Part shown: positions 29,858 to 60,830 of the stretch, in pieces
How positions within the stretch are numbered: the first letter of the stretch is position 1
How the letters are laid out: every line of letters begins with the position of its first letter
IMG/VR virus record: IMGVR_UViG_3300032331_003707
Coordinates: 36,346 to 100,345 of that record
DNA length: 64,000 nt
Source of the DNA: a virus
Reading direction: 5' to 3' (one strand)
Program-made: the position numbers and the translations under genes
Notes under the pieces: generated by a model
Told to the model about the DNA's origin: nothing
The model's database searches: none
Seen by the model: the letters and a program-made list of their open reading frames with translations, nothing else

Positions 29858-30205
29858 ATGAAAATCGACGGTTTAAAAAAATTAATTAAAGAAGCAGTAC
29901 GTGAAGCAATCCAAGATGAATTAAAAGATATTTTACTTGAAGCAGTACGTGCTCCTAAAACAGTAGTAAAGGAAGCATATACTCCATCCTATGGAACTAC
30001 AACCCCTGAGCCTTCACCATCAATAAATCATACTTTTAAACGCAATTTAAGAGATATGGTTAGTGGAGAATTTGGAACAATCTCAGCTACATCAGCCAAC
30101 GCTCAACCTGCCTACACCCCACCTCCAATAAATACAGTAGCTGAGGGTACTAGCCTACCATCAGGTGAAGTAAGCTTAAACCAAATAATGGGATTAATGA
30201 AATAA
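29858..30205 (+). CDS. Protein with capsid-targeting-like N-terminus (115 aa)
   Basis: A 115-residue protein opening with an amphipathic helix (LKKLIKEAVREAIQDELKDI) similar to the N-termini in the 44-61 kb block, then a disordered Pro/Thr/Ser-rich body. The C-terminus is short and helical (SLNQIMGLMK). It could be a scaffold, chaperone or head-packaged protein. Its stop overlaps the gp25 start. Confidence 0.6.
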   Translation: MKIDGLKKLIKEAVREAIQDELKDILLEAVRAPKTVVKEAYTPSYGTTTPEPSPSINHTFKRNLRDMVSGEFGTISATSANAQPAYTPPPINTVAEGTSLPSGEVSLNQIMGLMK

Positions 30206-30606
30206 TGGCAATAATTATTCAAAATAAATTTGCGCTTGATTCTTTAGGATATAAAACTATAGGATTTTCATTTCCTTTAAATGCAGGAGCAGTATTTCCT
30301 CCTACTTATACAGTCCAAGATCAAATTAAATATAACCTTATTAATTATTTAATGACTAATAGTGGGGAATCATATTTGGTTCCAAATTTTGGAGCAGGGT
30401 TACAAGATTTTGTTTTTGAACAAATTACTACTGAAAATTTTGCTTTATTAGAAACTATTATAAAGGAAAAAATTCAATTCGCTTTTCCTCAAGTTCAAGT
30501 TAAAAAAATTGAAGTTTTAGGAAACGCAGATAATAATCAAGTACGAATAGTAATTACATATAATATAATTAATTTTGGTAATGACCAAATAACTTTACAA
30601 TTTTAA
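30205..30606 (+). CDS. Baseplate wedge protein, gp25-like
   Basis: A 133-residue gp25/lysozyme-like wedge protein. The signature is TNSGESYLVPNFGAGLQDFVFE near residues 51-72, matching the conserved GExxxxPxFGxGLxxxLFE of contractile-tail sheath initiators, followed by the INIxxR-like strand region. In T4 it joins the baseplate wedge to the sheath. The gp6-like gene follows 5 nt later, as in other contractile injection systems. Confidence 0.9.
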   Translation: MAIIIQNKFALDSLGYKTIGFSFPLNAGAVFPPTYTVQDQIKYNLINYLMTNSGESYLVPNFGAGLQDFVFEQITTENFALLETIIKEKIQFAFPQVQVKKIEVLGNADNNQVRIVITYNIINFGNDQITLQF

Positions 30607-30611
30607 AAATA

Positions 30612-32477
30612 ATGGCATCTAGTAACCCCCAAATAAATTATTACGCTAGAGATTTTGAATCTTTACGTAGTACCTTAATTAATTATACTAAAACATATTT
30701 TCCTGACACATATAATGACTTTAGCCCTGCTTCCACAGGAATGATGTTTATGAATATGGCAGCGTATGTTGGGGATATACTTTCATTTTATTTAGATAAT
30801 CAAATCCAAGAAACTTTTATACAATATGCTAAGCAAGAAGAAAACATATTTGCCCTAGCATATCTACTTGGTTATAAACCTGCAATTTCTTCCCCAGCTG
30901 TTACCACTATTGATTTTTATCAACAATTACCAGCAGTACTTTCAGGAAGTGTAGCTATACCTGATTTTTCATATGCTCTTACTATCCCTGTATCTACCCA
31001 AATTTCTAATAATTTTGGTCTCCAAACTAGTTTTCTTTTAAATGGCCCTGTAGATTTTTCTTTTAGTAGTTCCTTAGACCCAACTGAAATATCAGTATAC
31101 CAGGTATCCAATGGAGTTCCTACTTATTTTCTAGCTAAAAAATCAGTTGTAGCAACTGAAGGGACTTTAAAAACTAAGCAATTTTCATTTGGTGTTGCAC
31201 AAGAATTTCCTACTATATTAATTCAAGATAATGATATAGTATATATCTCTAATTGTTTTGATTCAAATGGAAATACTTGGTATGAAGTAGATAATCTAGC
31301 CCAAGATTTTATATATGATGATGTTTCTAACACTCCATATAATGATCCTAATACCTCTACCTCAGATGTGTTTGCTACTCCTAATTTACTCCAATTAAAG
31401 AAAATTGAACGTAAATTTGCAACTCGATTCATAAATTCTAATAATTTAGAAATTCAATTTGGTAATGGTGGTGTAACTAATACTACTGAAAACATCATAC
31501 CAAACCCAGATAATGTTGGGTTAGGATTACCTATAGGAAGAAGTAAACTTACTACTGCTTTTTCTCCTACCAATTTTATCTTCTCTAACACATATGGTAT
31601 AGCACCCTCTAATACCGTTTTAACTTTTAGTTATTTAACCTCAAACGGAACCACAGGTAACCTACCAGCTAATACTCTTGTTCAATTTAACAAAAATATA
31701 TTAAAGTTTAAAACCACTGGTTTAGATCCTTCTATTTCAAATATAGTAATTAATTCTGTTACATGTACTAATCCTCAAGCTGCTTCTGGAGGAGGAAATG
31801 GTGATACTTTAGACCAAATAAAGCAAAATGCCCTTGGTTCATTTCAATCTCAATTAAGAGCAGTTACTCCTAATGATTATTTAATTCGTGCTTATAGTTT
31901 ACCTTCAAACTTAGGAACAGTAGCTAAAGCATATGTTACCCCCGAAAAATTATCTAATATCCAATCTGGGGAAACTCCATCAATTTTAGATCTATATATT
32001 TTAAGTCAAAATATTGATGGAAGTTATTCTACTGCTAATAACAGTTTAAAACAAAACTTAAAAACATACCTGTCCCAATATAGAAGTATTACTGATACTG
32101 TTAAAATTAAAGATGCTTTTATAATTAATATAGGAGTAGAATTTGAAATAGTTATTCGTCCTAATAGTGTTGGAGATATGGTATTATCAATGTGTATTGA
32201 TAGTATTAATAAATTTTTTGATAGAGGTAAATGGCAAATTAACCAACCTATATTACTAGATGATTTATATAGTTCTCTTGATTTAGTAGAAGGAATTCAA
32301 ACTGTTAAAAATATTAAAATTACCAACCTTACTTCTTCTAATGGAAATTACAGTACATATGCTTATGATGTTATAGGAGCTACTGTTAATAACATAGTTT
32401 ACCCCTCAGTTGACCCAATGATATTTGAACTAAAATCTCCAACAACAGATATTAAAGGAAAAATAGTACCATTCTAA
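30612..32477 (+). CDS. Baseplate wedge protein, gp6/gpJ-like
   Basis: A 621-residue gp6-type wedge protein. The N-terminus YYARDFESLRSTLINYTKTYFPDTYNDF and the helix TGMMFMNMAAYVGDILSFYLDNQIQETF are diagnostic, as is the central GDTLDQIKQNALGSFQSQLRAVTPNDY (gpJ-like core). It forms the ring of the baseplate that switches at contraction. The position after gp25 supports the call. Confidence 0.9.
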   Translation: MASSNPQINYYARDFESLRSTLINYTKTYFPDTYNDFSPASTGMMFMNMAAYVGDILSFYLDNQIQETFIQYAKQEENIFALAYLLGYKPAISSPAVTTIDFYQQLPAVLSGSVAIPDFSYALTIPVSTQISNNFGLQTSFLLNGPVDFSFSSSLDPTEISVYQVSNGVPTYFLAKKSVVATEGTLKTKQFSFGVAQEFPTILIQDNDIVYISNCFDSNGNTWYEVDNLAQDFIYDDVSNTPYNDPNTSTSDVFATPNLLQLKKIERKFATRFINSNNLEIQFGNGGVTNTTENIIPNPDNVGLGLPIGRSKLTTAFSPTNFIFSNTYGIAPSNTVLTFSYLTSNGTTGNLPANTLVQFNKNILKFKTTGLDPSISNIVINSVTCTNPQAASGGGNGDTLDQIKQNALGSFQSQLRAVTPNDYLIRAYSLPSNLGTVAKAYVTPEKLSNIQSGETPSILDLYILSQNIDGSYSTANNSLKQNLKTYLSQYRSITDTVKIKDAFIINIGVEFEIVIRPNSVGDMVLSMCIDSINKFFDRGKWQINQPILLDDLYSSLDLVEGIQTVKNIKITNLTSSNGNYSTYAYDVIGATVNNIVYPSVDPMIFELKSPTTDIKGKIVPF

Positions 32478-32489
32478 ACTTACTAACAC

Positions 32490-43667: not shown

Positions 43668-44476
43668 TTGAAAAAAATGTAAACGTAAATAAAAAATCTG
43701 TTACTCGTATTCTCCAAGTTGACCCTACATCTAAGAGAGTTAACATAGCTGATAACAGATTCTATAGCAGAAATGAAGATTATTACCCATCAGTAACAAG
43801 TATTTTACAATTTTTACCTAAAGGTAAATTTTTTGAAACCTGGCTTAAAGATGTAGGGCATAATGCTGATGTTATTTCTAGGAAAGCAGCAGATGAAGGA
43901 ACACAAGTCCATGATGCTATTGAGCGTTACTTATTAGGTGAAAAAATAGAATGGTTAAATGAAAATGGATATTCAAATTACTCATTAGACGTTTGGAAAT
44001 TAATTTTAAAATTCCATGATTTCTGGGCTACTGTTAAACCAACACTAATTGAAAGTGAAATCCACTTATTTTCAGATAAGTATAAATTTGCAGGAACTTG
44101 CGATTTAGTTGTTGAAATTAATGGTGAAAAATGGCTATTAGATATTAAAACTTCAAACTCAATCCACACAGCTATGGATTTACAATTAGCTGCTTATACT
44201 CAAGCATGGAATGAGACATTTGAAGAAAAAATAGAAAAGAATGGTATTATTTGGTTAAAATCATCTAAACGCGGAGAAGATAAAAGCGGCAAAAAAATAC
44301 AAGGTAAAGGATGGGAAATTTATGAACCAACACGTACTATTGAAGATAATTTTAAATTGTTTGAACACGTACATGAATTGTTCAAACTAGAAAACCCTAA
44401 CCCAAGACCATCATCAGAACAATTCCCTATGGAAATTCAGATATCCTCTGATATTTATGACAAAAATAAAGAATGA
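43664..44476 (+). CDS. PD-(D/E)XK exonuclease, Cas4/RecB-like
   Basis: A 270-residue nuclease. His83 in GTQVHDAIERYL, Asp147 in AGTCDLVVEINGEKWLLDIKTS (Asp160, Lys162) and QLAAYTQAW form the Cas4/RecB-type catalytic motif series. No Fe-S Cys cluster is present, so it is the PDDEXK_1-like single domain. It probably processes DNA ends during replication or recombination and is coupled to the primase and the following nucleotidyltransferase by 4-nt overlaps. Confidence 0.85.
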   Translation: MIEKNVNVNKKSVTRILQVDPTSKRVNIADNRFYSRNEDYYPSVTSILQFLPKGKFFETWLKDVGHNADVISRKAADEGTQVHDAIERYLLGEKIEWLNENGYSNYSLDVWKLILKFHDFWATVKPTLIESEIHLFSDKYKFAGTCDLVVEINGEKWLLDIKTSNSIHTAMDLQLAAYTQAWNETFEEKIEKNGIIWLKSSKRGEDKSGKKIQGKGWEIYEPTRTIEDNFKLFEHVHELFKLENPNPRPSSEQFPMEIQISSDIYDKNKE

Positions 44477-45435: not shown

Positions 45436-48400
45436 TGTCAGGTTCAATCGGAGCTAATAGAATCCCTAGAAAAGCTGTTGACCCAACAGTTAAAAAATAT
45501 ATTGAAAATATTTTAAAGAAATATCCTCCTTTTAGAAGTGCTAAAATATCTGGGTCATATAATACTACTGTAAAATCAGATCATGGTGATTTAGATTTAG
45601 TGATCCATGTTGATGCAGGTGAAGATGATAAAAAAACTCTTAAGAAAAAATTTGCTGAATATTTAAATTCATTACCTGATGATGTAATTGTTCCATTTAA
45701 AGCAGGACGTCATCAAGGTAAAAAAACAGCAGGTACTGGGGATATAGTTATTACTCAAATCCCAATAGAAGGTTACCCTGATCTAACGGTTCAAGTAGAT
45801 AATATGATTGTTACTTCTGAACAGGAAAGTGATTATAGAAAAAACTTTTTAGATATACCTGGTGAGAAACAAGCTTTATTAATTGGATTAGCAAAAGCTA
45901 TATTAATAGAAGAAGATCCTGAAACTGTAATTAAACGTTTAGGTATAAAAAATCTTCCACCTCTTGAAGATAATCAAGAATTTGAATTTAACCTATCATC
46001 AAAAGGTTTAACTTTACGTTTAGTAACGTTAGATAACTTTAAAGAAATTGGGCGTAATGATATTTGGAGTTCATATGATTGGAATGACATAAGTAAACTA
46101 TTTACCAATTATAATTTAAATTTACCATTTGATGAGTTATTAAAACAAGTAAAAAATTCTATAAGTAATCCTCGTTCTAGAAACAGAATTAAAGGATTAT
46201 TTAAATCTATGTTAGTAATTGGAGCAGGTGAAAAAGGAACACCTAAAGGAGACAATAAGGAATTAGCCCTACAGAAAGTAGATTCAATTTTAGAACAATT
46301 GGCTGCTTCATATATAACTGAAGACGCTACCTCTCCTATTATAGCTCTTTACCCTGGTAAATTTAAACCACCACATAAAGGACATTTAGATGTAGTTAAT
46401 CAACTTGCTTCTCTCCCTAATGTAGAAAAAGTAATAGTCTTAATTTCACCAAAACCTCATGAAGGTATCACAGCTGAACAAAGTTTAAATATATGGGAAA
46501 AATTATATTTACCATTAATAAACAACCCTGATAAAGTTAAATTTACCATATCTCAAGTTACACCTGTAAAAGATGTTTATGACATCATAACAGACAACCC
46601 AGACACAAATTTCATAGCAGCATATGGAAAAGAAGACGCAGGCCGTTATAGTAAACTAAACTCAGAAAGAGTTAAAACATATGATGCTGGAAATGTTGAA
46701 GGTATAAGTGCTACCGATTTAAGATCAGCTTTAAATTCTCAAGGAGATATAACTCCTTATATTCCTAAAGATGTTTCTCCAATTAAATATCTTGAAACTC
46801 TTGGAGTTTTGTTACATGAAAGTTTAAATGAATATACCAATCAATCTACATTAAATCCTGTAGTGTTTGATGGATTAGAAATTAAACCTAAGGTAAAAGA
46901 TATACTTATAAAAATTGCTAACGAATTTTGGAATTCATTAGAATTAGATGTTGATTATGAAGATATTTTACTTTTAGGTAGTTCTGCTAATTACAATTGG
47001 ACTCCATATTCTGATATAGATTTACATATTTTAGTAGATTTTGATGAGTTTGAAGATCCTAAAATAGCTAAAAAATTCTTTGATTTAGCCAAATCAAGAT
47101 TTAATGATACTCATGATCTAAAAATTAAAAATAATGATATAGAGGTATATGTTCAAAATTCTAAAGAACCTAATGCTAGCATAGGAGTATATTCTTTACT
47201 AAATGATGAATGGTTACAAGAACCTCAATACGGAAAAATTAAAATTCCGGATAATGAAATAGAAAATAAAGCTAAACCCTTTAAATCTAAAATTGATAAA
47301 ATCTTAAGAACAAAACCTACATCTAACAACTATGATTTTTTAATTGATTCTATAAAAGGACTCCAGGACAAACTTAAAAAATTCAGACAAATTGGATTAG
47401 AAACAGGTGGTGAATATTCAATTGAAAATTTAGCTTTTAAAAACCTACGCAATACAGGTTATATTGAGAAACTTCTTAATTACAAGACTGAAGTAATGGA
47501 TAAAGTATTATCTATTAAAGAAATTTTTGATAAACCTGTAGATGCTTACCCATTCACTGAATCAGGAGATGGAACATATATGTTTGAATCTGACAGTGGA
47601 AATCAATATGTTGTCTATATAGATGTTGCTAGTGAAAACAGAATTTCTATAGACTTTGGTATAGCCGATGAAACAGGTGATGTAGATTACCCTGAAACAA
47701 ATGTAGGTGAATTATATAAAGTAATGTCTACTATTATAGCAATTGCTAAAAGTTATGTAAACCAACACCCTGAAATAGAAATTATTTCTTGGTCATCTGT
47801 AGCAAAAAGAGGACAAAAGAAAATTGGAGATACTCAACGTGATAAACTTTATAAATTGGTTGTTAAAAAACAAGCAGGACTATCTGATAAAGATATTAAA
47901 TTTATTAACGGTGAATGGTGGGCTTATTTAAAAGGATATAACCCATTATTTGAAAAAATGTCCTCTACAACTGAATTCCCAGAACCATTTACGTATGAAG
48001 ATCTTATAGATATAGACAAATATGCAGATGATGCTTTAAACCCAATAGATGTTAATCTTGACCCTAAGTCAAATGGGCATTTTTTAGATAGAGCTATTGA
48101 AAGAGGTATAACTAAAGATGAATTAAAGGATTTCTTTGCTAGATTAGGATTAAAAAAAGATAGTTTAAAATATTTCTTTACTAAAGCAAAAGAAAAAGGA
48201 GACAATGATGTTGTAGCAACAGATAAAAAAACAAATATTAGTATTCCTTTTGAAGATACAACTTCAAGTGTTAAAGATCGTATGGCGAATAGAATTAAAT
48301 CTATAGGCGCTAAAACAGTACATAAAAAATCTAATTTTCATACCCCAAATGTTCGACTTACTTTTGCTGAAAATGAAAAAGATACATTTGGATTAAATGC

Positions 48401-48899
48401 TTATGCTAGAGAATTGGCTAAAGAATTAGAAGAAGAATTAAAAGAAGCTAATAATATTAAAACAAGTAAAACTAAACCACTAATGAATATTTTGGTATTA
48501 GATTCTGAAGATAAATCTTCTTTAAAAGAATTTAAAAAACACTTGGCTTCTTTAACTAATTATATGATCGATAACGGATATAATGTTTCTCCTCTTCCTA
48601 AAATAAAATTTATCAATAATGATGTAGAAAATGCTCAAAATGTACTAGGAACAACTGCATATTATAACCCAAATGATAAATCAGTTACTTTGTTTACATT
48701 AAATAGACATCCAAAAGATATATTACGTTCATATGCTCATGAAATGGTTCATCATAAACAAAATTTAGAAAATAGATTAACTAATATCTCTGGACAAAAT
48801 ATAAATGAAGATGACTATTTGAAAGAAATTGAAAGAGAAGCATATGAGGAAGGAAATATGATGTTTAGAAGTTGGGAAAACGGATTAAATAAAAAATGA
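45435..48899 (+). CDS. Multi-enzyme fusion: two NTases, HxGH cytidylyltransferase, metalloprotease (1154 aa)
   Basis: A 1154-residue fusion with at least five parts. Residues 35-125: pol-beta nucleotidyltransferase (SGSYNTT, Asp52/Asp54). Residues 300-450: cytidylyltransferase/NMNAT-like domain with HKGH (314-317) and ISATDLR (424-430). Residues 480-620: second nucleotidyltransferase (LLGSSANY, Asp527/Asp529). Residues 880-975: a domain opening HFLDRAIERGI. Residues 1090-1145: zincin HEMVHH (1102-1107) with EIEREAYEEG. Short helices ending YITE (293-296) and LNE (464-466) precede domains 2 and 3. Marine T4-like phages have shorter HxGH proteins of this type; such a long assembly is unusual. 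Confidence 0.8.
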   Translation: MSGSIGANRIPRKAVDPTVKKYIENILKKYPPFRSAKISGSYNTTVKSDHGDLDLVIHVDAGEDDKKTLKKKFAEYLNSLPDDVIVPFKAGRHQGKKTAGTGDIVITQIPIEGYPDLTVQVDNMIVTSEQESDYRKNFLDIPGEKQALLIGLAKAILIEEDPETVIKRLGIKNLPPLEDNQEFEFNLSSKGLTLRLVTLDNFKEIGRNDIWSSYDWNDISKLFTNYNLNLPFDELLKQVKNSISNPRSRNRIKGLFKSMLVIGAGEKGTPKGDNKELALQKVDSILEQLAASYITEDATSPIIALYPGKFKPPHKGHLDVVNQLASLPNVEKVIVLISPKPHEGITAEQSLNIWEKLYLPLINNPDKVKFTISQVTPVKDVYDIITDNPDTNFIAAYGKEDAGRYSKLNSERVKTYDAGNVEGISATDLRSALNSQGDITPYIPKDVSPIKYLETLGVLLHESLNEYTNQSTLNPVVFDGLEIKPKVKDILIKIANEFWNSLELDVDYEDILLLGSSANYNWTPYSDIDLHILVDFDEFEDPKIAKKFFDLAKSRFNDTHDLKIKNNDIEVYVQNSKEPNASIGVYSLLNDEWLQEPQYGKIKIPDNEIENKAKPFKSKIDKILRTKPTSNNYDFLIDSIKGLQDKLKKFRQIGLETGGEYSIENLAFKNLRNTGYIEKLLNYKTEVMDKVLSIKEIFDKPVDAYPFTESGDGTYMFESDSGNQYVVYIDVASENRISIDFGIADETGDVDYPETNVGELYKVMSTIIAIAKSYVNQHPEIEIISWSSVAKRGQKKIGDTQRDKLYKLVVKKQAGLSDKDIKFINGEWWAYLKGYNPLFEKMSSTTEFPEPFTYEDLIDIDKYADDALNPIDVNLDPKSNGHFLDRAIERGITKDELKDFFARLGLKKDSLKYFFTKAKEKGDNDVVATDKKTNISIPFEDTTSSVKDRMANRIKSIGAKTVHKKSNFHTPNVRLTFAENEKDTFGLNAYARELAKELEEELKEANNIKTSKTKPLMNILVLDSEDKSSLKEFKKHLASLTNYMIDNGYNVSPLPKIKFINNDVENAQNVLGTTAYYNPNDKSVTLFTLNRHPKDILRSYAHEMVHHKQNLENRLTNISGQNINEDDYLKEIEREAYEEGNMMFRSWENGLNKK

Positions 48900-49435
48900 T
48901 TAGTTTAACACAAATTTACCAAGAGGGCGTTCTCTCTCCTAATTACACGCTTTATTGTGATATGGATGGAGTACTATGTGACTTCGATTCCCGATTTGAT
49001 TACTTCACAGGACTTTCTCCTGAAGAATATAAAAATAAATTTGGAAATAAAAAGTTTTGGGACCTAATTGATAACCAAGTAGGAGTACCATTTTGGTCTA
49101 ACATGCCCTGGATGCCAGAAGGAGAACTTCTTTGGGATTACATTAAAAAATATAACCCTGTTCTTCTTTCCTCACCCTCAGAAAATAATGAATCTCGTTT
49201 AGGGAAACGTCTTTGGGTAGAAAAACACATTAATAAATATCTCCCACCAGCTTCACCTAAAACCGAATTAATTCTTGCAGCTAGACACAATAAACAAGAT
49301 TATTCAACAAAAACTTCAATACTTATAGACGATCGCCCTGATACTATTTCAGAATGGAACTCCCATAGTGGGATTGGAATTTTGTTTAGATCAACAGGCC
49401 AAACCATTAAAGACTTAAAAAAAATAGGATTATGA
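48896..49435 (+). CDS. HAD-like 5'-nucleotidase/phosphatase
   Basis: A 179-residue HAD hydrolase. The N-terminus MISLTQIYQEGVLSP resembles the block's targeting helix. The catalytic motif DMDGVLCDFD (Asp22/Asp24) opens the domain; LLSSPS is motif II and ILIDDRPDTI motif IV. It is of the 5'(3')-deoxyribonucleotidase type. It overlaps the giant enzyme and the following gene by 4 nt, so all are co-translated. The substrate is probably a nucleotide. Confidence 0.8.
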   Translation: MISLTQIYQEGVLSPNYTLYCDMDGVLCDFDSRFDYFTGLSPEEYKNKFGNKKFWDLIDNQVGVPFWSNMPWMPEGELLWDYIKKYNPVLLSSPSENNESRLGKRLWVEKHINKYLPPASPKTELILAARHNKQDYSTKTSILIDDRPDTISEWNSHSGIGILFRSTGQTIKDLKKIGL

Positions 49436-49839
49436 AACTCCACCAACTCAAAAAAATCATCATCGAAAATCTCACTGCTCACTCCCCAGAACTAATTTCA
49501 TCTCCAGATGAATCCCCAAAATTCCCAGGAGTTAACCAAGTTAAAGACTTCTTCGTAGTAACCCTCCCAGCATCATCATCTCCAGAAAGTACTGTAAGAA
49601 GAACTAATGTATTTGATGATATTCCTATGGATGGAACTCATGGAGTATATTTAAGTGAAGCTGAAGCTACTCGTGAATCTAAACGTTTAACTCAAGAATA
49701 TTCTTCTCAATTAAAAGAGTTAGAAGAAACTATGGCTGAAGTTAGAGCTCAAGAAGCTGAATTAAAAGAAAGAAAAAAAGAAGCTGCTGAAAGAATTAAG
49801 CAGATGAAAGGTGATAAGAAAAAAGAAACCAAAAAATAA
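49432..49839 (+). CDS. Coiled-coil protein with targeting-like N-terminus (135 aa)
   Basis: A 135-residue protein: MKLHQLKKIIIENLTAH at the start, a Ser/Pro-rich stretch with NVFDDIPMDGTHGVYLSEAEA, then a Lys/Glu coiled coil (LKELEETMAEVRAQEAELKERK). Scaffold-like composition. Function unknown. Confidence 0.6.
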   Translation: MKLHQLKKIIIENLTAHSPELISSPDESPKFPGVNQVKDFFVVTLPASSSPESTVRRTNVFDDIPMDGTHGVYLSEAEATRESKRLTQEYSSQLKELEETMAEVRAQEAELKERKKEAAERIKQMKGDKKKETKK

Positions 49840-50443: not shown

Positions 50444-50923
50444 ATGAGCAATAATTTTAGTATAAGTGAATGGAGACGTCAACAACTTCACAAAGAAATA
50501 ATAACAGAAGACCTTACGCGTATATCAGAAAATGAAGAAGAAGCTGATATGAAAAAATACCGTAAAGAAGTTTTACAACAACTTTTAACTTGGTATAAAA
50601 AACAAGACAAACCAGACCAGAATATGGTTAAAAAACTTGAAGGAGAAATTGGTAATCTTAACGAAGGTAAAGTTACTGTTAAGTCAATTAAGTTTTCTGA
50701 TTTAAGTGATAAAAATCTTTTACCTACTAATATAGGCATGGGTTCGTCTCGAAAAATTAAAGACGAAGATGACTTTAAAAATTGGAAAGCTGATTTTCTT
50801 AAAAAATATGGTAATATTGAATTAGAAAAAGGCAATGCCGGATGGAAAGCATCATCTAAGCATGAAGCAAATAAACAAGCACAAGCAGACTTTGACAAGA
50901 ATGCTAAAAAAAATAAAAAATAA
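50444..50923 (+). CDS. Charged helical protein (159 aa)
   Basis: A 159-residue charged protein: FSISEWRRQQLHKEIITEDL at the N-terminus, a helical body, then VTVKSIKFSDLSDKN and a Lys-rich tail. The opening helix ends in ITE, matching the (I/L)xE pattern of prohead-protease sites. Function unknown. Confidence 0.6.
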   Translation: MSNNFSISEWRRQQLHKEIITEDLTRISENEEEADMKKYRKEVLQQLLTWYKKQDKPDQNMVKKLEGEIGNLNEGKVTVKSIKFSDLSDKNLLPTNIGMGSSRKIKDEDDFKNWKADFLKKYGNIELEKGNAGWKASSKHEANKQAQADFDKNAKKNKK

Positions 50924-51299: not shown

Positions 51300-51658
51300 T
51301 GGAATCTAATTTTAATCAAGGAAAAAAGGCTATTTCTAACAGACTTAGAAACCTTATTATTATCCCTGAGAAAATACGAGAATTCAGACAAGAATTAAAC
51401 CAAAAGTTTCTTAGCGGAGAAATCACCAAATATGAATTTGATGAAGCCTCAGCTTATTTAGATAAAAAAGAAAACGAACACTACTCTAAAACCCCAGGAC
51501 TTAGAGAAGCATTAATCGAGGTTTATTCTAAAATAGAAGAAGAACTCTGCCCAGCTGGAAAAAGATATATTACTAAACGTAAAGCTGCTGGTGAAAAATC
51601 ATCAGCCTATCTTTCAGGACGTGCTGTAAAAGTGTGTAAGGGTCAAATGAAGGGATAA
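51299..51658 (+). CDS. Basic conserved phage protein (119 aa)
   Basis: A 119-residue protein. The C-terminus CPAGKRYITKRKAAGEKSSAYLSGRAVKVCKG is a basic, two-Cys module, recalled from several marine T4-like phages. The N-terminal part is helical and charged. It starts on the last base of the previous stop and ends on the next start. It may bind nucleic acid in the particle. Confidence 0.66.
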   Translation: MESNFNQGKKAISNRLRNLIIIPEKIREFRQELNQKFLSGEITKYEFDEASAYLDKKENEHYSKTPGLREALIEVYSKIEEELCPAGKRYITKRKAAGEKSSAYLSGRAVKVCKGQMKG

Positions 51659-51933
51659 TGACTAAAAAAGAATTACATGAAATAATTTATGAGTCATTAC
51701 GTGATTGGTTTAAAAAAGAAGACTGGGTTCGTATTGATACCCAAGGTAATATAACTGGCCCATGTGGTACTATGAAAAAAGGTCAAGCAACTACTCGTTG
51801 TTTACCTAGAGCTAAAGCAAATAGTTTAACTAAAGCAGAACGTGCTTCTACATCTAGAAAAAAAGTAACAGGTAGTAAAAAAGGTAAACAATTTGTTTCT
51901 AACACATCCAAAGCCAAAGTTAAAAAAAAATGA
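51658..51933 (+). CDS. Basic CGT/RCLPxAKA-type phage protein (91 aa)
   Basis: A 91-residue, very basic protein. A targeting-like helix (ELHEIIYESLRDWFKKE) is followed by the conserved WVRIDTQGNITGPCGTM, RCLPRAKA and SLTKAERASTSRKK. The CG(T/G)...RCLPxAKAxSLTxxER module is widespread in marine phages, function unknown. The Lys tail suggests DNA binding, for example inside the head. Confidence 0.7.
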   Translation: MTKKELHEIIYESLRDWFKKEDWVRIDTQGNITGPCGTMKKGQATTRCLPRAKANSLTKAERASTSRKKVTGSKKGKQFVSNTSKAKVKKK

Positions 51934-52079
51934 TTAAACTAACCGACATATTACAAGAAATGATAGCTAATACTAAAATTATTTGTGATAAATGTGGCTG
52001 GAAATGGAAAATAAAAGATGGAGGAGATGATTTATTTATGTGTCATAAATGTGGCCATGATAATGCTTCATCTTATTAA
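51930..52079 (+). CDS. Zinc-finger micro-protein (49 aa)
   Basis: A 49-residue protein, ATGA-coupled to the previous gene. MIKLTDILQEMIAN is a targeting-like helix; CDKCGWKWK and CHKCGH form a four-Cys zinc ribbon with conserved KIKDGGDDLFMC between. I recall similar ribbons (CxKCxWxW...DLxxCHKCG) fused to many phage proteins. Role unknown. Confidence 0.68.
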   Translation: MIKLTDILQEMIANTKIICDKCGWKWKIKDGGDDLFMCHKCGHDNASSY

Positions 52080-52109: not shown

Positions 52110-53243
52110 ATGAAACAACAATTGAGCGAACAATTTTCTCGTATGAAAAAATTAGCGGGTATTAATGAAAATTTTATGACCCCAAAACCATTACCTCCTG
52201 CTTCTGGGGAACATAATCCTTCTACATTATGGGATTCATTAGATCTCCCAACTAGAACTAATGCTCTTGAACCAATTGTTGGACCTGAAGATGCTGGATA
52301 CCTAGCTAGATATAGTTGGTATAATATCCCAGGTAGTGTAGCTAATCAAATTGAATTTGATGATATAGTATCTCATAGAGAAAATACTCCTGTTTCTTTT
52401 TTAGATAAAGAATTAAATGAAATTTTAGCTTTAATAAATGAAGCTGAGAAAAAATCAAAAGAAGAAGAGGAAGAAGAAACACCAGCTGAAGAAGAAGAAA
52501 CACCTGCTGAAGGTGAAGATGAAGCACCAGCTGAAGAAGAAGCTCCTGCTGAAGGGGAAGATGTTGAAGGTGAAGAAGGTCTTGATCCTGAGGTTAAAAA
52601 AATTCAAAGTGCATTAGAATTAGCATATGCTAAAGCTAAAGAATTAGGAGATAAAAAATTAAATGCTCAAATTGGTAATACTATTACTTATTTTACTAAA
52701 ACTCAAGTATTAAAAGCTGAAGAAGGTGAAGGTGAGGAAGGTGGGGAAGTTACTGAAGATTTATTTTCTTCATTAGTTAGAGAAGTAGCTATTGCTCCTG
52801 CTGGGAAACCAAAAGAAGACCCAAATAAAAAACAAGCCCAAGTAAAGGGAAGTATTAATGTTAATGCTTTTAAAAAATTAAATGTCCCTGGTGCTAATAT
52901 TGCTGTCTTAACCTCATCAATAAACAAAATCAAACAAGGTCTTTCAGCAGATAAACTTAGCACTAGTGAAAAAGCAGAATTAGCTAAGACATTTGCTGAA
53001 ATGATTCGCACTAAAAACGATTCTCTTCTTAATCAAATCTTCAGCATCCTTAAAAATGTTGAACAAGCCCCAGCAAAAGCTCCTGTAACTGAAAAAAAAC
53101 TTTCTAAAGCTGAAAACAGTGAAAAAGAAAAAATTGTAAAGGGAATGAAAAAAAATAAATCTGAGTTTGTAAAAGATTATGGGAAAGATGCTCAAAAAGT
53201 AATGTATGCTACTGCTACTAAATTAGCCCAAAAGAAAAAATAA
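52110..53243 (+). CDS. Acidic repeat virion/scaffold-like protein (377 aa)
   Basis: A 377-residue protein. The N-terminus EQFSRMKKLAGINENF is shared in style with the gene at 57218. Residues ~110-160 are a Glu-rich repeat of PAEEE/PAEGE units. The C-terminus KIVKGMKKNKSEFVKDYGKDAQKVMYATATKLA is a module recalled from many marine phage proteins (MKKNxxxFxKxYGxxAxxVMYATATKxA). Composition and position fit a scaffold or internal head protein. Its stop overlaps the next ATG by 1 nt. Confidence 0.66.
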   Translation: MKQQLSEQFSRMKKLAGINENFMTPKPLPPASGEHNPSTLWDSLDLPTRTNALEPIVGPEDAGYLARYSWYNIPGSVANQIEFDDIVSHRENTPVSFLDKELNEILALINEAEKKSKEEEEEETPAEEEETPAEGEDEAPAEEEAPAEGEDVEGEEGLDPEVKKIQSALELAYAKAKELGDKKLNAQIGNTITYFTKTQVLKAEEGEGEEGGEVTEDLFSSLVREVAIAPAGKPKEDPNKKQAQVKGSINVNAFKKLNVPGANIAVLTSSINKIKQGLSADKLSTSEKAELAKTFAEMIRTKNDSLLNQIFSILKNVEQAPAKAPVTEKKLSKAENSEKEKIVKGMKKNKSEFVKDYGKDAQKVMYATATKLAQKKK

Positions 53244-53755
53244 TGACTCGTGCTGAATTAATAGATAAAATTAGAGGTATTGTAAAAAAAGTTTACAAAC
53301 CTGTAATTGTAAAAGTTGACTTAGACACAGTCAATACTGGGGTATCCTTAGATATAGAAAGATTCCCATTATTAGCTAAATTCCCATCATTACGAGAAAT
53401 AATCGAAAAACTTCTTACTTCTCAATATGATATCTTTATAGGAGATGTATTATGGGTTGCACCTCGTCCTACTACATTTAAAATTATATTTAATAATGGA
53501 CAAGTATTTTATCTTATAACTACTAATAAAGGATGGATCGCTAAAGTAGAAGGTAAAAAATATTTTATAACCGAACGAAATGAACTAGAACGAGCCTCAG
53601 AAGCTCTTGCACGAATCCTTTCATATGGAAACCCAGCTGATATTGCAGCCGCATCAACTGAAGCACCTGCTGAAGAAGTTCCAGCTGAAGAAGCACCTGC
53701 TGAAGAAGCTCCAACTGAAGAAACACCTGAAGAAACCCCTGAAGAAACAACATAA
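53243..53755 (+). CDS. Protein with PAEE repeat tail (170 aa)
   Basis: A 170-residue protein. Residues 1-125 form an alpha/beta domain (VKKVYKPVIVKVDLDTVN, FKIIFNNGQVFYLITTNKGWIAKVEGKKYF); the last 40 are a repeat of (P/A)AEE units like that in the preceding protein. Sharing of the repeat suggests joint evolution or interaction. Function unknown. Confidence 0.62.
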   Translation: MTRAELIDKIRGIVKKVYKPVIVKVDLDTVNTGVSLDIERFPLLAKFPSLREIIEKLLTSQYDIFIGDVLWVAPRPTTFKIIFNNGQVFYLITTNKGWIAKVEGKKYFITERNELERASEALARILSYGNPADIAAASTEAPAEEVPAEEAPAEEAPTEETPEETPEETT

Positions 53756-53776: not shown

Positions 53777-54400
53777 ATGAAAAATAAACTTACCGAAGAA
53801 AAAATTGAACAATTACTTCTAGAATTAATTGAAGAAGGATTATTTGATAGATTAAAATCTAAAGCAACTGGAGCTGTAGCTGGTTTAAAACAAACTGGAA
53901 AGAACTTAGGTGCGTTTTTAAAAGGTGATGCTTCTGCTATCGGAGATCCAAAACTTCAAAAAGCAACAGCTCAACTTAAATCAAAACTTGATACTATCGC
54001 TAAAGATTTATCTTCAGCCCAAGAAGATATGGCTACTCTATTCCCAGCAGCTACTATAAAATCTTTACCTGGAGATCTTCCAACTATAATAAGTAATTAC
54101 CAAAAATCTTTAACTGTTATGGGTAATGCTACTAAAAAGATTATATCTCAAATTTCAAACCCTCCTAAATCAAAAGGTGATGACAAATCATCTGAAGAAA
54201 AAGGTAAACAACCTCAACAAAAAGCCGCTCAACCCCAACAAAAAGGTAAACAACCACAACAAAAAGCTGCTCAACAAAAACAACCCAACAGAAACCCAGC
54301 AACTGGAAGATTTACTAAAAAAGGAGAACCAGCTCGTGACCCTAAAACTGGAAGGTTTGTTAAAAAGACTTTAGAAGAACTTCTAAAACAATATAAATAA
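53777..54400 (+). CDS. Basic repeat protein with targeting-like N-terminus (207 aa)
   Basis: A 207-residue protein. The N-terminal helix EEKIEQLLLELIEEGLFDRLK ends in acidic residues. A helical core follows, then a Gln/Lys-rich repeat (GKQPQQKAA units, ~residues 142-170) and two NPATGRFTKKG / DPKTGRFVKK repeats. Disordered and basic at the end, so a possible DNA-condensing head protein. Confidence 0.62.
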   Translation: MKNKLTEEKIEQLLLELIEEGLFDRLKSKATGAVAGLKQTGKNLGAFLKGDASAIGDPKLQKATAQLKSKLDTIAKDLSSAQEDMATLFPAATIKSLPGDLPTIISNYQKSLTVMGNATKKIISQISNPPKSKGDDKSSEEKGKQPQQKAAQPQQKGKQPQQKAAQQKQPNRNPATGRFTKKGEPARDPKTGRFVKKTLEELLKQYK

Positions 54401-54407
54401 TTTAGTT

Positions 54408-55259
54408 GTGGATATTTTTACAAAATTCCTAAATAGCGTTTCTCATAAGTTTCCTAAAGGTTACCCTGATATGAATGATGCTGATGATGTTAAACTTTTA
54501 GAATCTTTACTTAAACCATACATCTCAGAAACAGAACAACCTGAAGGGGAATCTTCTGAGGAATCAACAATATCTACCCAACAACAAGAACTTCAAAAAA
54601 TTATTGATGTTATAGATAAAGTTGAATCAGATGATAAGATAACAAAAACCAAATTATTTGACTTACTTGCAGATTATACTTACAAATATTATAACTCTGA
54701 ATTAGGGGATATTAAAAAAGTATTCCCCAACCCTGTGTCTACACTTGGAAGTTGGAGAGACTATGTTGAAAGAAAAGAAAGCAATGTAGGTAAAGAAATA
54801 GAACAAGCTGTAGAATTATACTCTCAGGAACAAGGCGTAGAAGCATCATCTATAAGAGGCAAAGGAACAGATGTTAATATAGATGGGAAAGAAGTTGAAA
54901 TTAAATCATCATCAGGTAATACCATAACTACGATGCTTCAAACTTCATTCTATAAAAATAATCCTAATAAATTTTATTTATTTGCTAGTAATTCATCTAA
55001 ATCTGATTTAACTATTCGTATAGTATCAAGTGAACTATTATATAGATTAAGTTTAGGAGATGATATAGCAGATGAGCTAGCAACTAATAAACAATCACAA
55101 AAATTACTAGACCAAATAAATACAGGTTTAGAAACATTAGATTTTCCACATTTAATACAAACATCATTAACAACAGGTGAAAGCTTAGATGTTAAAAAAT
55201 CTTTTAAAGTAGGAAAAAATATTAAAGTTAGATTTGTAATCTATATTGAACCTCAATAA
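54408..55259 (+). CDS. Restriction-enzyme-like PD-(D/E)XK protein, GTG start
   Basis: A 283-residue protein with a GTG start 7 nt after the previous stop. NVGKEIEQAVELYSQ, then GKGTDVNIDGKEVEIKSSSG (Asp155, Glu164, Lys166) is a PD-(D/E)XK core of the type seen in restriction endonucleases, followed by FYLFASNSS. The N-terminal 70 residues are acidic. A nuclease within the internal-protein-like cluster could act on host DNA after injection. The family is tentative. Confidence 0.65.
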   Translation: MDIFTKFLNSVSHKFPKGYPDMNDADDVKLLESLLKPYISETEQPEGESSEESTISTQQQELQKIIDVIDKVESDDKITKTKLFDLLADYTYKYYNSELGDIKKVFPNPVSTLGSWRDYVERKESNVGKEIEQAVELYSQEQGVEASSIRGKGTDVNIDGKEVEIKSSSGNTITTMLQTSFYKNNPNKFYLFASNSSKSDLTIRIVSSELLYRLSLGDDIADELATNKQSQKLLDQINTGLETLDFPHLIQTSLTTGESLDVKKSFKVGKNIKVRFVIYIEPQ

Positions 55260-55901: not shown

Positions 55902-56717
55902 ATGAATACAAATTATATCAAACAAATTATTAAAGAAGAATTAGAAAAAATTCTTAATGAAGCTTTCTTTAACATCAGACCTCAAAAAGGAGGATCAGGT
56001 GGAAGAAGGTACATCCCTAAATTTTTTGTCTTCCCAGGAAATGTCAGAGAAAATCTTAAAGATTACTTTAAATTTTATGGAAATACAATGTATGTTGATC
56101 CTCAAGTATTAATAGCACTTGGTTACCTTACTCGAGGAAGACAATCATATGATAAAACACAGGATTTTCCATCTTTAACTAAACTTTTACAAGATAAACT
56201 ACCACAACCTGTTAGATTATCTATTAAAAAAGGAGCTGAAGGGCAAAGAATGCAAGATATTGGTGGTAAAAAAATGGTTCCTTTAAATTTAGATATTACT
56301 AAAGATGAAGCAGGGAATTATTTAATTAAAAACCCATATACTAATATTAGTGAATATAAATCACACCTATTAGAAGCATTATTACTAGAAAAAAAAAACG
56401 TATCTAATGTATATCAACTAGAATCATTACTAGTTACTGATACTAGTGTTCGTAACCAAGCTGAAATCTTATCTGATATTCGCTCCCTTTCTGGAGTTAC
56501 TATTGTATCCACAGATCCACTTAATCCTGATCAAAATGTTCAAAATAAAGATAGGGTTGAATCTAAACTTTATTTAAAAATCGATCCACATCCATTTTTA
56601 GGTAAGGGAGGATTTGGAGAAAAAGAACTTGAAACTATTTATTCAAGCATTAAAAAAATTAAAGGTGTTACTGTATTTAGAGTAATTGGTAAACCTGATA
56701 GAAAAACATTACGATGA
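55902..56717 (+). CDS. Protein with targeting-like N-terminus (271 aa)
   Basis: A 271-residue protein. YIKQIIKEELEKILNEAFF is the best example of the block's N-terminal helix. Later DIRSLSGVTIVSTDPL and KLYLKIDPHPF, IKGVTVFRVIG look like a ferredoxin-like beta-alpha-beta pair, a feature I recall in phage proteins containing DIRSLPGVTxV. No catalytic motif. It overlaps the next gene by 4 nt. Confidence 0.65.
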   Translation: MNTNYIKQIIKEELEKILNEAFFNIRPQKGGSGGRRYIPKFFVFPGNVRENLKDYFKFYGNTMYVDPQVLIALGYLTRGRQSYDKTQDFPSLTKLLQDKLPQPVRLSIKKGAEGQRMQDIGGKKMVPLNLDITKDEAGNYLIKNPYTNISEYKSHLLEALLLEKKNVSNVYQLESLLVTDTSVRNQAEILSDIRSLSGVTIVSTDPLNPDQNVQNKDRVESKLYLKIDPHPFLGKGGFGEKELETIYSSIKKIKGVTVFRVIGKPDRKTLR

Positions 56718-56971
56718 TTAAGTTAATAGATTTACTTAAAGAAGAAAAAGGAGAAAAATATCCTCCTTATATGTACTCTCCTGTAGGATTTGGTTGTCAC
56801 GTTTGTGAATATTATTATAAAGAAGATGGATTACATCATTGTAGTAATAAAGAATATCAAAAATATATGGGTACTAATGAATTAGTAGATAATGAAGGAA
56901 ACCAAATTAAGGATCCATCAAAATGGTGTTCTAATTGGTTCCACCCTAATATTCAAGATGAGACCGTATAA
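56714..56971 (+). CDS. Cys-motif protein with targeting-like N-terminus (85 aa)
   Basis: An 85-residue protein: MIKLIDLLKEEKGEKYP at the start, then GFGCHVCEYYY, HHCSNKEYQ and KWCSNWF. Four Cys in this spacing, with aromatic neighbours, resemble small Fe-S (HiPIP-like) or zinc proteins. Function unknown. It overlaps the cupin-like gene. Confidence 0.66.
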   Translation: MIKLIDLLKEEKGEKYPPYMYSPVGFGCHVCEYYYKEDGLHHCSNKEYQKYMGTNELVDNEGNQIKDPSKWCSNWFHPNIQDETV

Positions 56972-57221
56972 CGATATAGAAATTACAGATAAATATATTA
57001 TTCGTGAATTTAACGAAAATATAGATCCTATTGAATTACTGTGGCATCGTGATAGAGAAGATCGCGTTGTAGAAATTATAGAAGGAATAGATTGGAAAGT
57101 TCAACTCGAAGATCAACTTCCAATAACTCTTACAAATTCTCCAATATTTATACCAAAATACGAATGGCATCGTGTTATTAAAGGAACAGGAAACTTAAAG
57201 TTAAAAATACATAAAAAATGA
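56958..57221 (+). CDS. Cupin-like small phage protein (87 aa)
   Basis: An 87-residue protein; ATG 56958 is chosen over longer readings inside the previous gene. LLWHRDREDRVVEIIEGIDWKVQLEDQLP and IFIPKYEWHRVIKG follow a compact beta-barrel pattern (WHxDxExRxVxIxxGxxWxxQ...IPxxxxHR) common in T4-like marine phages. His residues could bind metal. Role unknown. Confidence 0.7.
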   Translation: MRPYNDIEITDKYIIREFNENIDPIELLWHRDREDRVVEIIEGIDWKVQLEDQLPITLTNSPIFIPKYEWHRVIKGTGNLKLKIHKK

Positions 57222-57958
57222 ATAAAGAATTTTTAAAAATGCAAAAATTGGCTGGTTTAATTACTGAAAGTCAATACAAATCAAAAATAAACGAAGCTGA
57301 AGAAGACCCATCAATAAGCGATATTGTAAAAAAAATTACCCAATATCTTAAATCAAATGATTATAACTCATTAGTATTTCTTGATGGAAAGAAAATAGAA
57401 GGAAACCCAGGTGACCCATTCGAAATAATGGGAAAATCTAATGATGGAAATATTTCAGTAGTTGGCCGTGGAAATAAACCAGAATTAATTAAAAACGAAA
57501 TGGAGCATTTACAAAAATGGATTTTAAATAATTTTGATTCTTTAAAACTACAAAGCCCTTTTACACCTGGCCATATGGGGGGAGATCAGCATAATGGTAA
57601 ATTTTGGGTTAAAATAGACTCAGACAAAAAATCAGTAAACGAAGCTGAGGAAAAAACTATTCAAACATATGGTCCAAACTTAGTAGATATGTTAAAAAAA
57701 AATGGTTTTGACACTAAATTTACTACTAATAACTCTGAATATAAAAAAGCCCAAGAATTTGCTAAAACATCAGATAAAAAATTAGCTGTTGTCTACTATA
57801 ACCCTAACATTAAATTTATTTCTGTTACAACAAATCAAAACAATCGAGATGAAGCTTTTAAAATAATTACAAGCCCAGCTGTTGAAAGATTACTCCCAGA
57901 TGGTTATAAGGCTCAAGAGCAAGGAGGTTATTTTATTGAAATTCAAAATCTTAGCTAA
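57218..57958 (+). CDS. Protein with repeated NEAEE segments (246 aa)
   Basis: A 246-residue protein. The N-terminus FLKMQKLAGLITESQYKSKINEAEED resembles that of 52110. A similar segment, VNEAEEK, recurs near residue 140 between two alpha/beta domains; the second contains LVDMLKKNGFDTKFTTNN. ITE and INE/VNE match (I/L/V)xE cleavage-site patterns. The domains themselves were not recognised. Confidence 0.63.
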   Translation: MNKEFLKMQKLAGLITESQYKSKINEAEEDPSISDIVKKITQYLKSNDYNSLVFLDGKKIEGNPGDPFEIMGKSNDGNISVVGRGNKPELIKNEMEHLQKWILNNFDSLKLQSPFTPGHMGGDQHNGKFWVKIDSDKKSVNEAEEKTIQTYGPNLVDMLKKNGFDTKFTTNNSEYKKAQEFAKTSDKKLAVVYYNPNIKFISVTTNQNNRDEAFKIITSPAVERLLPDGYKAQEQGGYFIEIQNLS

Positions 57959-58030: not shown

Positions 58031-58031
58031 T

Positions 58032-58093: not shown

Positions 58094-58099
58094 TAGCAT

Positions 58100-59404: not shown

Positions 59405-59408
59405 ATAT

Positions 59409-59645
59409 ATGAGTATAGACCCAACATTTCAAACCAAGAAATACACATCACCTGATGGTACAGTACGCCATATGAAAGATGGTAAACTACATAACTGGGA
59501 AGGACCAGCATTAATTACACCTGAAGGTAAAGAAGAGTATTTTATTAATGGTTTCCAACACACTAAAGATAGTTGGAAAAAAGCTAGAAAAGATGGTGTA
59601 GGGTTACCATGGTATAAATCAAGTGTGGCTAAAGCTAGATTTTAA
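59409..59645 (+). CDS. Small conserved phage protein (78 aa)
   Basis: A 78-residue protein with DGTVRHMKDGKLHNWEGPALITPEGKEEYFINGF, a pair of MORN-like beta-hairpins (xDGxLHxxxGPAxxxPDGxxEYxxNG) that I recall from many phages and bacteria. It ends GLPWYKSSV. It is co-transcribed with the oxidoreductase (4-nt gap). Function unknown. Confidence 0.72.
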   Translation: MSIDPTFQTKKYTSPDGTVRHMKDGKLHNWEGPALITPEGKEEYFINGFQHTKDSWKKARKDGVGLPWYKSSVAKARF

Positions 59646-59646
59646 T

Positions 59647-59654
59647 TATCTTTA
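59647..59654 (+). promoter_or_regulatory. Promoter -7 box with leaderless start
   Basis: TATCTTTA followed by TAAT and ATG 59659, the same geometry as other leaderless starts. The -33 region (GTGTG) is a poor match. Confidence 0.55.
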
Positions 59655-59658
59655 TAAT

Positions 59659-60189
59659 ATGAAAATAGGATTATGTGGAACAATGAGTGTTGGAAAAAGT
59701 ACACTCGTACATGCTTTAAAGGAATTACCTGAATTTAAAGATTATTATTTTGCTACTGAACGTAGTAAATACTTACGTGATTTAGGCATTCCATTAAATA
59801 CTGATAGTACATTAAAAGGACAAACAATATTCTTAGCTGAACGTTGTTCTGAGTTAATGCGTGAAAATGTTATTACTGATAGAACAATTTTAGATGTAAT
59901 GGCTTTTACTCAATGTGCTCAATCTATTGATGAAAAAGAAAAACAATCTTTTGTCAATTATGCTACTCAATTTCTTAAAGAATATGATTACATATTTTAT
60001 ATTTCTCCAATTGGTGTTGAAATTGAAGATAATGGGGTTAGAGAAACAAATTCTGAATATAGAGATATAATTGATATTAGTATTAAATCTTTAATTAAAT
60101 CTAATATAGATAATTTTAAAAACTTTGGTATTGTTACTGGTACTGTAGAGGAAAGAATTAAACAAGTGAAATTTTATTTAGGGTTTTAA
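59659..60189 (+). CDS. P-loop nucleotide/nucleoside kinase (AAA_28-like)
   Basis: A 176-residue kinase. The start at 59659 is placed behind the -7 box; a longer reading overlaps the upstream gene. GTMSVGKST at residues 6-14 is Walker A, and ITDRTILDVMAFTQ is the DR motif of deoxynucleoside-kinase-like AAA_28 proteins (NadR/Ttd14 type). It probably phosphorylates a nucleoside or a cofactor. It may supply nucleotides together with thyA, or NAD precursors. Confidence 0.8.
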   Translation: MKIGLCGTMSVGKSTLVHALKELPEFKDYYFATERSKYLRDLGIPLNTDSTLKGQTIFLAERCSELMRENVITDRTILDVMAFTQCAQSIDEKEKQSFVNYATQFLKEYDYIFYISPIGVEIEDNGVRETNSEYRDIIDISIKSLIKSNIDNFKNFGIVTGTVEERIKQVKFYLGF

Positions 60190-60199
60190 TATTTATAAT
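60189..60199 (+). promoter_or_regulatory. Class III (late) motif
   Basis: ATATTTATAAT at the end of the kinase gene, 16 nt before ATG 60216. Confidence 0.62.
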
Positions 60200-60215
60200 C
60201 AAAACTCTATATAAA

Positions 60216-60830
60216 ATGAAACAAATCAACATTTTAAGAAAACTTATCAAAGAAACGATAAACGAATTTGCTGGAGAAACAGCAGGAGCACCAGTATCTG
60301 GTTTTTATTTAACCCCTGATTACAAAGAAAAACTTGTAGCTGCTCAGCAAGATCCTCAATTAGCCCCTTTAATTTATACTAAAGGTGGACAAGGTAGATT
60401 ATCTACTACTGTAGAAAATATTATAGGTGCCTTAGAAGCATTAAGTGCTATCGGAGGAGATATTTCAACAGATGAAGAAGGAAATATAGATAGTGGAATT
60501 GCTTCACTTCAACAAATTGCTACCAAAGCATTTGGTGCAGGAACAGAACAACAAGCTGTTTTCCAACCTGTTAAAAGACTTGTAAATGCTGGTGTAGTTG
60601 AACAATCTACTCAAAAGTATGCTCGCAGCCCGTTTTCTGGTAAACTTAAATCTTTTACTAAATCTGAAAAACCTGCTCCTACAGGTATAAGAGGTCGTAA
60701 GAAAGAAGTTGATGCCGATATAAAAATGATGGGAGCTGGAATAATTAATAAATTCTCTAGAGGAAATACTAATTATACCCCTGAAGAAGTAGCATATATT
60801 AAAGACTTATTTAAATCTTTAAAAAAATAA
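60216..60830 (+). CDS. Protein with targeting-like N-terminus (204 aa)
   Basis: A 204-residue protein: ILRKLIKETINEFAGE at the start ends in an INE site. The middle is helical (TTVENIIGALEALSAIGG), and the C-terminus is basic (KSEKPAPTGIRGRKKEVDAD). Directly upstream of the terminase. A head-internal or small-terminase-like role is conceivable, but no family was recognised. Confidence 0.62.
   Translation: MKQINILRKLIKETINEFAGETAGAPVSGFYLTPDYKEKLVAAQQDPQLAPLIYTKGGQGRLSTTVENIIGALEALSAIGGDISTDEEGNIDSGIASLQQIATKAFGAGTEQQAVFQPVKRLVNAGVVEQSTQKYARSPFSGKLKSFTKSEKPAPTGIRGRKKEVDADIKMMGAGIINKFSRGNTNYTPEEVAYIKDLFKSLKK

Follow-up and report, generated by a model that had tools for sequence, protein, structure and literature searches.

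Proteins that are loaded into phage heads are at work from the very start of infection; among them are counter-defence enzymes, such as IPI of bacteriophage T4, as well as Alt. In T4, the proteins IPI, IPII, IPIII and Alt, which are of unrelated function, carry a capsid-targeting sequence (CTS), a 10-residue N-terminal helix with hydrophobic residues at positions 4, 7 and 8 and Glu at position 10, and are processed by gp21 at an L/I-x-E motif. Mutational mapping of the IPIII peptide MKTYQEFIAE showed an influence of residues 4 and 7 on targeting and of residues 8 and 10 on processing (PMC9026906). The ejection proteins of phiKZ-like phages and SPN3US form a large head cargo, with propeptides cut after Glu by a prohead protease (gp175/gp245) that is a relative of T4 gp21 (PMC9026906). 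In phage P1, DarA, DarB and Hdf are head-loaded defence proteins that are injected and protect the phage DNA (PMC12810830). The present work concerns a stretch of 64,000 nucleotides (the window), positions 36346-100345 of the 100,345-base virus record IMGVR_UViG_3300032331_003707, and in particular its gene block at 42277-60830, in which otherwise unrelated proteins start with short peptides resembling the CTS, referred to below as tags. We consider it likely that these tags are T4-type capsid-targeting sequences that have been expanded, partly via copying of the scaffold tail, and are probably trimmed by a gp21-type protease.

The likeness to T4 includes the register of the helix, the cleavage motif, the unrelated functions of the proteins and the presence of gp21-type protease and T4-type scaffold and capsid genes in relatives of the virus. 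Such proteins number only a few in T4, whereas at least 12 are found here in one block and more than 100 body families in the group. Unlike in T4, there are several non-homologous tag types, one of which is the C-terminal tail of the scaffold, and tags also occur at C-termini and between domains. The phiKZ-like and SPN3US phages belong to another lineage, and no evidence of an inner body was seen here; P1 would be alike in having head-loaded proteins but differs in phage and assembly route.

From the T4 CTS, the motif Φ-x-x-Φ-Φ-x-E (Φ = L, I, V, M, F or Y) within residues 1-30 was derived, which catches T4 IPII, IPIII, Alt, gp68 and gp24. It is present in 10 of the 26 genes of the block (44473, 48896, 49432, 51658, 51930, 53777, 55902, 56714, 57218 and 60216); three of these (48896, 51930 and 56714) have the exact T4 register. 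When residues 2-30 were shuffled, a mean of 1.64 genes had the motif, and ten were reached in 0 of 20,000 shuffles. The claim of the preliminary description that many otherwise unrelated proteins share CTS-like N-termini is thus borne out, and all the N-termini it quoted occur in the open reading frames (ORFs) at the positions it gave. The features are as follows; each tag is given up to its predicted cleavage site.

44473..44514 (gene 44473-45435), + strand: tag MISLVSIFKDLILE on a pol-beta-type nucleotidyltransferase; motif match
46275..46322 (within the 1154-residue protein of gene 45435-48899), + strand: tag-like junction VDSILEQLAASYITE before a domain like NMN adenylyltransferase (NMNAT); from homologue comparison and Pfam domains
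48896..48925 (gene 48896-49435), + strand: tag MISLTQIYQE on a 5'-nucleotidase/HAD protein; exact T4 register, weak NT5C match
49432..49467 (gene 49432-49839), + strand: tag MKLHQLKKIIIE; motif; orthologues retain a start like MKLxQL(R/K)xLIKE
50444..50509 (gene 50444-50923), + strand: possible but uncertain tag MSNNFSISEWRRQQLHKEIITE; IITE site as in tag C, no strict motif, one homologue
51658..51693 (gene 51658-51933), + strand: tag MTKKELHEIIYE; motif; best PHROG matches (function unknown) begin at residue 13
51930..51959 (gene 51930-52079), + strand: tag MIKLTDILQE on a 49-residue zinc-ribbon protein; exact T4 register
52110..52169 (gene 52110-53243), + strand: scaffold-tail tag MKQQLSEQFSRMKKLAGINE; 28.4 bits with the scaffold C-terminus profile
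53777..53836 (gene 53777-54400), + strand: tag MKNKLTEEKIEQLLLELIEE; motif, two possible Glu sites; tag varies among orthologues
54408..54530 (gene 54408-55259), + strand: tag type E, the KGYPDMN module, with a GTG start; the body is a candidate PD-(D/E)xK nuclease
55902..55961 (gene 55902-56717), + strand: tag MNTNYIKQIIKEELEKILNE; motif present twice
56714..56743 (gene 56714-56971), + strand: tag MIKLIDLLKE on an 85-residue Cys-rich protein; exact T4 register
57218..57268 (gene 57218-57958), + strand: scaffold-tail tag MNKEFLKMQKLAGLITE, of the kind found in 107 viral-contig ORFs
60216..60266 (gene 60216-60830), + strand: tag MKQINILRKLIKETINE, motif; gene directly before the terminase gene
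29858..29941 (gene 29858-30205, before gp25), + strand: similar N-terminal helix MKIDGLKKLIKEAVREAIQDELKDILLE, doubtful member
53243..53305 (gene 53243-53755), + strand: helix MTRAELIDKIRGIVKKVYKPV, unsupported as a cleavable tag; no (L/I)xE in the helix

Two of the 14 examples of the preliminary description do not fit. In the homologues of the 53243 protein, the helix is retained and likewise ends without a Glu site. The 29858 protein, encoded beside the baseplate gene gp25, is doubtful; its orthologue imm157 in Flavobacterium phage vB_FspM_immuto (Immutovirus; below immuto), a T4-like myovirus and the closest relative of the window's virus, is alike in baseplate position and helix, and conservation runs to residue 30 and beyond. 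It may be a structural protein in which the helix is part of its own fold.

The limits of the block were taken from the finding itself, a weakness from which the tests on immuto and on 80 related loci are free. With automatic gene calls, which agreed with the annotated starts of immuto in 48 of the 49 genes compared, the search was carried across the remaining record, and the motif was found in 9/23 genes of the block against 17/138 elsewhere (Fisher p 0.003). In immuto, the block as bounded by synteny has the motif in 14 of 30 genes (1.9 expected) and the other genes in 19 of 193 (12.6 expected), with p 5e-6 for block against other genes. The 80 loci were chosen by the terminase alone. Here, 27.0% of 84 upstream families have the motif, as compared to 7.2% after shuffling and 6.9% of internal 30-mers (P 8e-8), and among 27 families downstream of the terminase (portal, head) the rate is 15% against 4.5%; the families were defined by blastp at E<1e-3, remote relatives may be split, and counting by family removes relatedness only in part. 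The Glu of the motif is commonest at residues 10 and 12 in these loci. Over all collected proteins, the exact T4 register was counted 169 times where 8.6 would be expected, a number that still includes redundancy and tag-based selection. The primase, exonuclease, FAD oxidoreductase and P-loop kinase of the same block are untagged and serve as an internal negative control. Genes 3, 40 and 41 of immuto (L086:1803, 24569 and 25061), far from the head region, carry clear tags (D, T4-register and C, respectively); hence, tagged proteins are not limited to the block before the terminase.

The preliminary description had assumed one common helix. Instead, the N-termini are several portable tag types. 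Types A and B are short helices of T4-register or KxxLIKE type, such as MISLTQIYQE (48896), MIKLTDILQE (51930) and that of 55902. Tag C reads EQFxRMQKLAGIITE (52110 and 57218), with the core RMQKLAGIITE; tag D, FNLKKFLVENKLTxNSxxLxE, is found in immuto 179, 194 and 195 and is absent from the window; and tag E is the 40-residue KGYPDMN module (54408 and immuto 193). Immuto and the window are alike in gene order and in having a block of tagged proteins, but differ in tag repertoire, immuto having tag D as well; its annotation makes no mention of tags.

The extent to which the tags move between proteins was followed by exact-peptide scans of viral contigs. Tag C was found in 107 ORFs with 57 body families, being N-terminal in 97, inter-domain in 7 and C-terminal in 3. 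Tag D (FLVENKLT) is present in at least 114 ORFs; among the matches listed, it is N-terminal in 105/114, with 56 body families. Tag E (KGYPDMNNP) is N-terminal in all 52 ORFs, at residues 17-18 in 51 of them, with 6 body families. Homologues of immuto were found on 111/117, 109/110 and 67/67 of the tag-bearing contigs. The tag C peptide had no match in 84,980 prokaryote genomes, and among 50,697 phage records its immuto form matched only the four immuto records. One 10-residue tag C peptide has 61 different DNA spellings, which indicates that selection acts on the peptide; another peptide has 54. Orthologues exchange tags or have none. The D-tag DNA pattern was also observed four times in a row within 2 kb (L311:3954-5768). 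A further portable module, KGKDHDGDGDIDSDDYMAAKDKAIKKAMGKDE, which is EF-hand/dockerin-like, occurs in 11 otherwise different proteins (L179:5732-6838, L280, L341, L366, L381, L382, L289, L349, L031, L012 and L263), and at bases 30772-31170 of the window's own record.

Tag C connects the cargo to the scaffold. A C-terminus like QFxRWQKLAG(I/L) was seen in 21 of the 22 scaffold proteins that are complete in the loci, the exception being L049, which ends in RMRELAFGTKN; the pattern of the group at the protein end is (R)(M/W/F)(Q/K)xLAG(I/L). A profile was built from the scaffold tails alone and then run on all other proteins. The best cargo N-terminus scored 30.9 bits and the 52110 protein of the window 28.4, as compared to a maximum of 12.3 for 4,098 shuffled proteins, and 16 of the 17 hits above this maximum were copies of the tag at an N-terminus, at a C-terminus or between domains. 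Because a scaffold-only profile finds tag C so far above the shuffled maximum, the cargo proteins appear to carry a copy of the scaffold's tail, by descent or convergence. The idea that an LAGI tail is common to all T4-like scaffolds was rejected, as those of T4 (..VYAKVASRF), the cyanophage P-SSM4 (..YVDALARWSK) and the pelagiphage Mosig end differently. The N-terminus of gp22, the scaffold protein of T4 (L089:30117-30926), MLKEQLIAEA, was observed to resemble the phage's own targeting peptide, MKTYQEFIAEA; it may be that cargo in T4 imitates the N-terminus of the scaffold, as the cargo of the present group would imitate the C-terminus of its own.

Other head proteins of the group have similar N-termini. 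The major capsid proteins start with MSxVQxLLES or MELNQLFEG and have (L/I)VxE, usually before a small residue (A/S/G/N/T), in the region matching the propeptide of T4 gp23; the proteases start with MKQVLIET, with a second Glu site soon after. In tag C, IITE is followed by S, N or G in 87 of 107 cases, which resembles the predicted capsid-protein site.

The bodies behind the tags were compared among relatives. In the 44473 gene, MISLVSIFKDLILE precedes GGNVF; in the L139 and L113 orthologues GGNVF is preceded by different tags, and in 13 orthologues it directly follows the initial Met, with in-frame stops just upstream in the immuto gene. The untagged orthologues begin exactly at the predicted mature start, and hence the tags are appendages. 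The AlphaFold2 (AF2) model of this protein has an overall pLDDT (predicted local distance difference test score) of 83; residues 1-16 are below 50, with a lone helix at 4-11, and the body is confident and matches DNA polymerase beta. The 48896 body has at least seven different N-terminal tags among relatives, such as MKKVMGNLADLLLE before ES in imm184, and the C-terminal domain of the 55902 protein reappears behind other tags in L181, L029 and L171. The 51930 body, with weak zinc-ribbon matches from residue 10, is fused or otherwise tagged in relatives. The N-terminus of the 60216 protein is retained in 4 relatives, whose bodies are partly different, and the 57218 body has no homologue among the proteins of the collected loci. 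In the 54408 protein, D155, E164 and K166 are invariant; because its AF2 model is poor (pLDDT 45), the nuclease is a candidate assigned from the D..ExK conservation only. Most of 44 further loci match just its first 28-89 residues.

The 45435 protein has no N-terminal tag, its tag-like junction being internal. It contains two nucleotidyltransferase domains of pol-beta type, a domain like NMNAT, a stretch like DUF6934 and, at the C-terminus, a segment resembling HExxH (HEMVHH), and its homologues vary in length and domain set. In these homologues, (L/I/F)xE precedes the NMNAT domain either at the N-terminus (MNQLTKHLIGELLE before DKQVIGLYGGGF) or inside polyproteins; in the window, the junction reads LAASYITE followed by DATSPIIALYPGKF. 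As the site occurs in both positions, the comparison suggests that the same protease separates the domains of the polyprotein. A search with PADLOC gave only a weak match of the 45435 protein to PDC-S09, across its nucleotidyltransferase region.

Pfam and PHROGs gave few annotations for the window proteins. The recognisable cargo bodies are pol-beta nucleotidyltransferases (44473 and parts of 45435), NMNAT (45435), 5'-nucleotidase (48896), zinc ribbon (51930) and the candidate PD-(D/E)xK nuclease (54408). The view that much of the cargo is undescribed was upheld in that 108 representatives of tagged proteins match only 7 Pfam families, six of these by a single protein, and most bodies have no known domain; an HD domain is among those recognised.

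The order gp25, gp6, fibres, primase, exonuclease, about 20 small or medium genes, terminase and portal is common to the window and immuto. The genes adjoining or within the block are:

58100-59404: FAD-dependent oxidoreductase, and 59656-60189: P-loop kinase; neither is tagged, and L006, L009 and L031 have both ahead of the terminase too
60894..62474, + strand: terminase large subunit (gp17-like), 58.8% identical to the immuto terminase; synteny anchor
62491..64000, + strand: portal (gp20-like); the record ends within the gene, and protease, scaffold and capsid genes would come next

In relatives, the genes for prohead protease, scaffold and major capsid protein come after the portal gene, and the block directly precedes this run of genes from terminase to capsid. 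The last three are missing from the record of the window because it stops inside the portal gene; a gp21-type protease and a cleavable capsid protein were seen in the close relatives L006, L009 and L031 and in immuto, where the protease is imm201. A search of the record for Peptidase_S77 gave no match, but is uninformative, as the controls gave none either. Two side observations concern other genes. At 55283-55900, the window encodes an untagged Cys-rich MGCACGCNTC protein ending in FSGYW/FSGFW, with about 60 homologues in the collected loci (e.g. L037:3637, L179:10186 and L062:510), some of which have a tag in front (MENLHQLIREVLESK). In L001, genes for glycosyltransferase, epimerase, transaminase and nucleotide-sugar functions follow one another (record bases 2654-18500), a large glycan pathway in the phage.

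In the mechanism proposed, the tags would bring unrelated proteins into the prohead during its assembly, by docking them in the scaffold core or on the inner face of the shell. Short helices such as MISLTQIYQE would act as position-by-position counterparts of the IPIII/Alt targeting peptide, and the RMQKLAGI tag, as a copy of the scaffold tail, would take the tail's binding site on shell or core; from this match, competition for the partner of the scaffold tail is predicted. A gp21-type prohead protease would then cut after the Glu of (L/I)xE and free the enzymes and small proteins, and the freed bodies might remain beside the DNA and then be ejected into the host, a step that, with their function there, is speculative. 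By analogy with T4, encapsidation and loss of the tag would be expected. For a broader version, a modular cargo system with interchangeable tags in which cargo enters the prohead as a scaffold mimic, including polyproteins cut into injected enzymes, we regard the chances as about even.

Several points weigh against the capsid-targeting explanation. About 60% of the genes of the block lack the strict motif, and some 10% of the C and D tags stand at C-termini or between domains, whereas T4 targeting peptides are mainly N-terminal. The scaffolds of T4 and of cyanophages and pelagiphages have no LAGI end. The tag C ORFs were retrieved by the peptide itself, so that the independent evidence is position and body diversity, not conservation. 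As the record lacks the protease, scaffold and capsid genes, these had to be read from relatives. Finally, no virion proteome was found for this group, and the literature held nothing relevant on tag use in it, on immuto proteomics or on the string LAGIITE.

Among other explanations, the tagged proteins could be assembly factors, recruited to the scaffold or core by their tags and lost by degradation or expulsion when the head matures, as with T4 gp67, gp68 and gp22, so that little or no cargo would reach the host. That tag C equals the scaffold's own tail, that low-complexity bodies exist (52110 and 53777) and that T4 core proteins are cut to fragments that mostly leave the head (PMC9026906) would all fit; however, the nucleotidyltransferase, 5'-nucleotidase, NMNAT, zinc ribbon and HD bodies are folded enzymes or metal-binding domains, and relatives differ greatly in the bodies they carry, while assembly factors should be conserved. 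This makes the explanation unlikely. It is considerably less probable that the peptides are ordinary amphipathic helices for membrane binding or oligomerisation, unrelated to heads. Such N-terminal helices are common, and the background rate of the motif is 7%, but they would not be expected to show the exact T4 register, to recur on the scaffold C-terminus, at other C-termini and between domains, to have similar counterparts at the N-termini of capsid protein and protease, or to be enriched beside head genes.

The least probable explanation, for which we see very little room, places the conservation in DNA or RNA, either as a translation start context or as a recombination hot spot that shuffles bodies. 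Tags at gene starts with shuffled bodies behind them are what recombination at short shared sequences would give; the many DNA spellings of two tag peptides, and the presence of the tag C peptide at C-termini and inside ORFs, argue against it, and conservation of the tags at the DNA level was rejected on codon diversity. Recombination may help to spread the tags, yet leaves retention of the peptide unexplained. The capsid-targeting explanation given in the preliminary description is well supported by the T4 CTS register, the similar N-termini of capsid protein and protease, the scaffold-tail match and the position of the block before the head genes.

Head-loaded proteins are hard to find because their bodies share no sequence. 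With simple tags, candidates for injection in a very common aquatic phage group could be listed directly from metagenomes; here, these comprise more than 100 families, almost none of which has a known domain. From the agreement of tag and scaffold tail follows a testable prediction of what a targeting peptide binds, as well as a supply of ready-made peptides with which foreign proteins might be loaded into phage heads. This group of viruses probably packs a large protein cargo and may inject it into the host, where, as a matter of speculation, enzymes acting on NAD and nucleotides would fit counter-defence or take-over at the start of infection.

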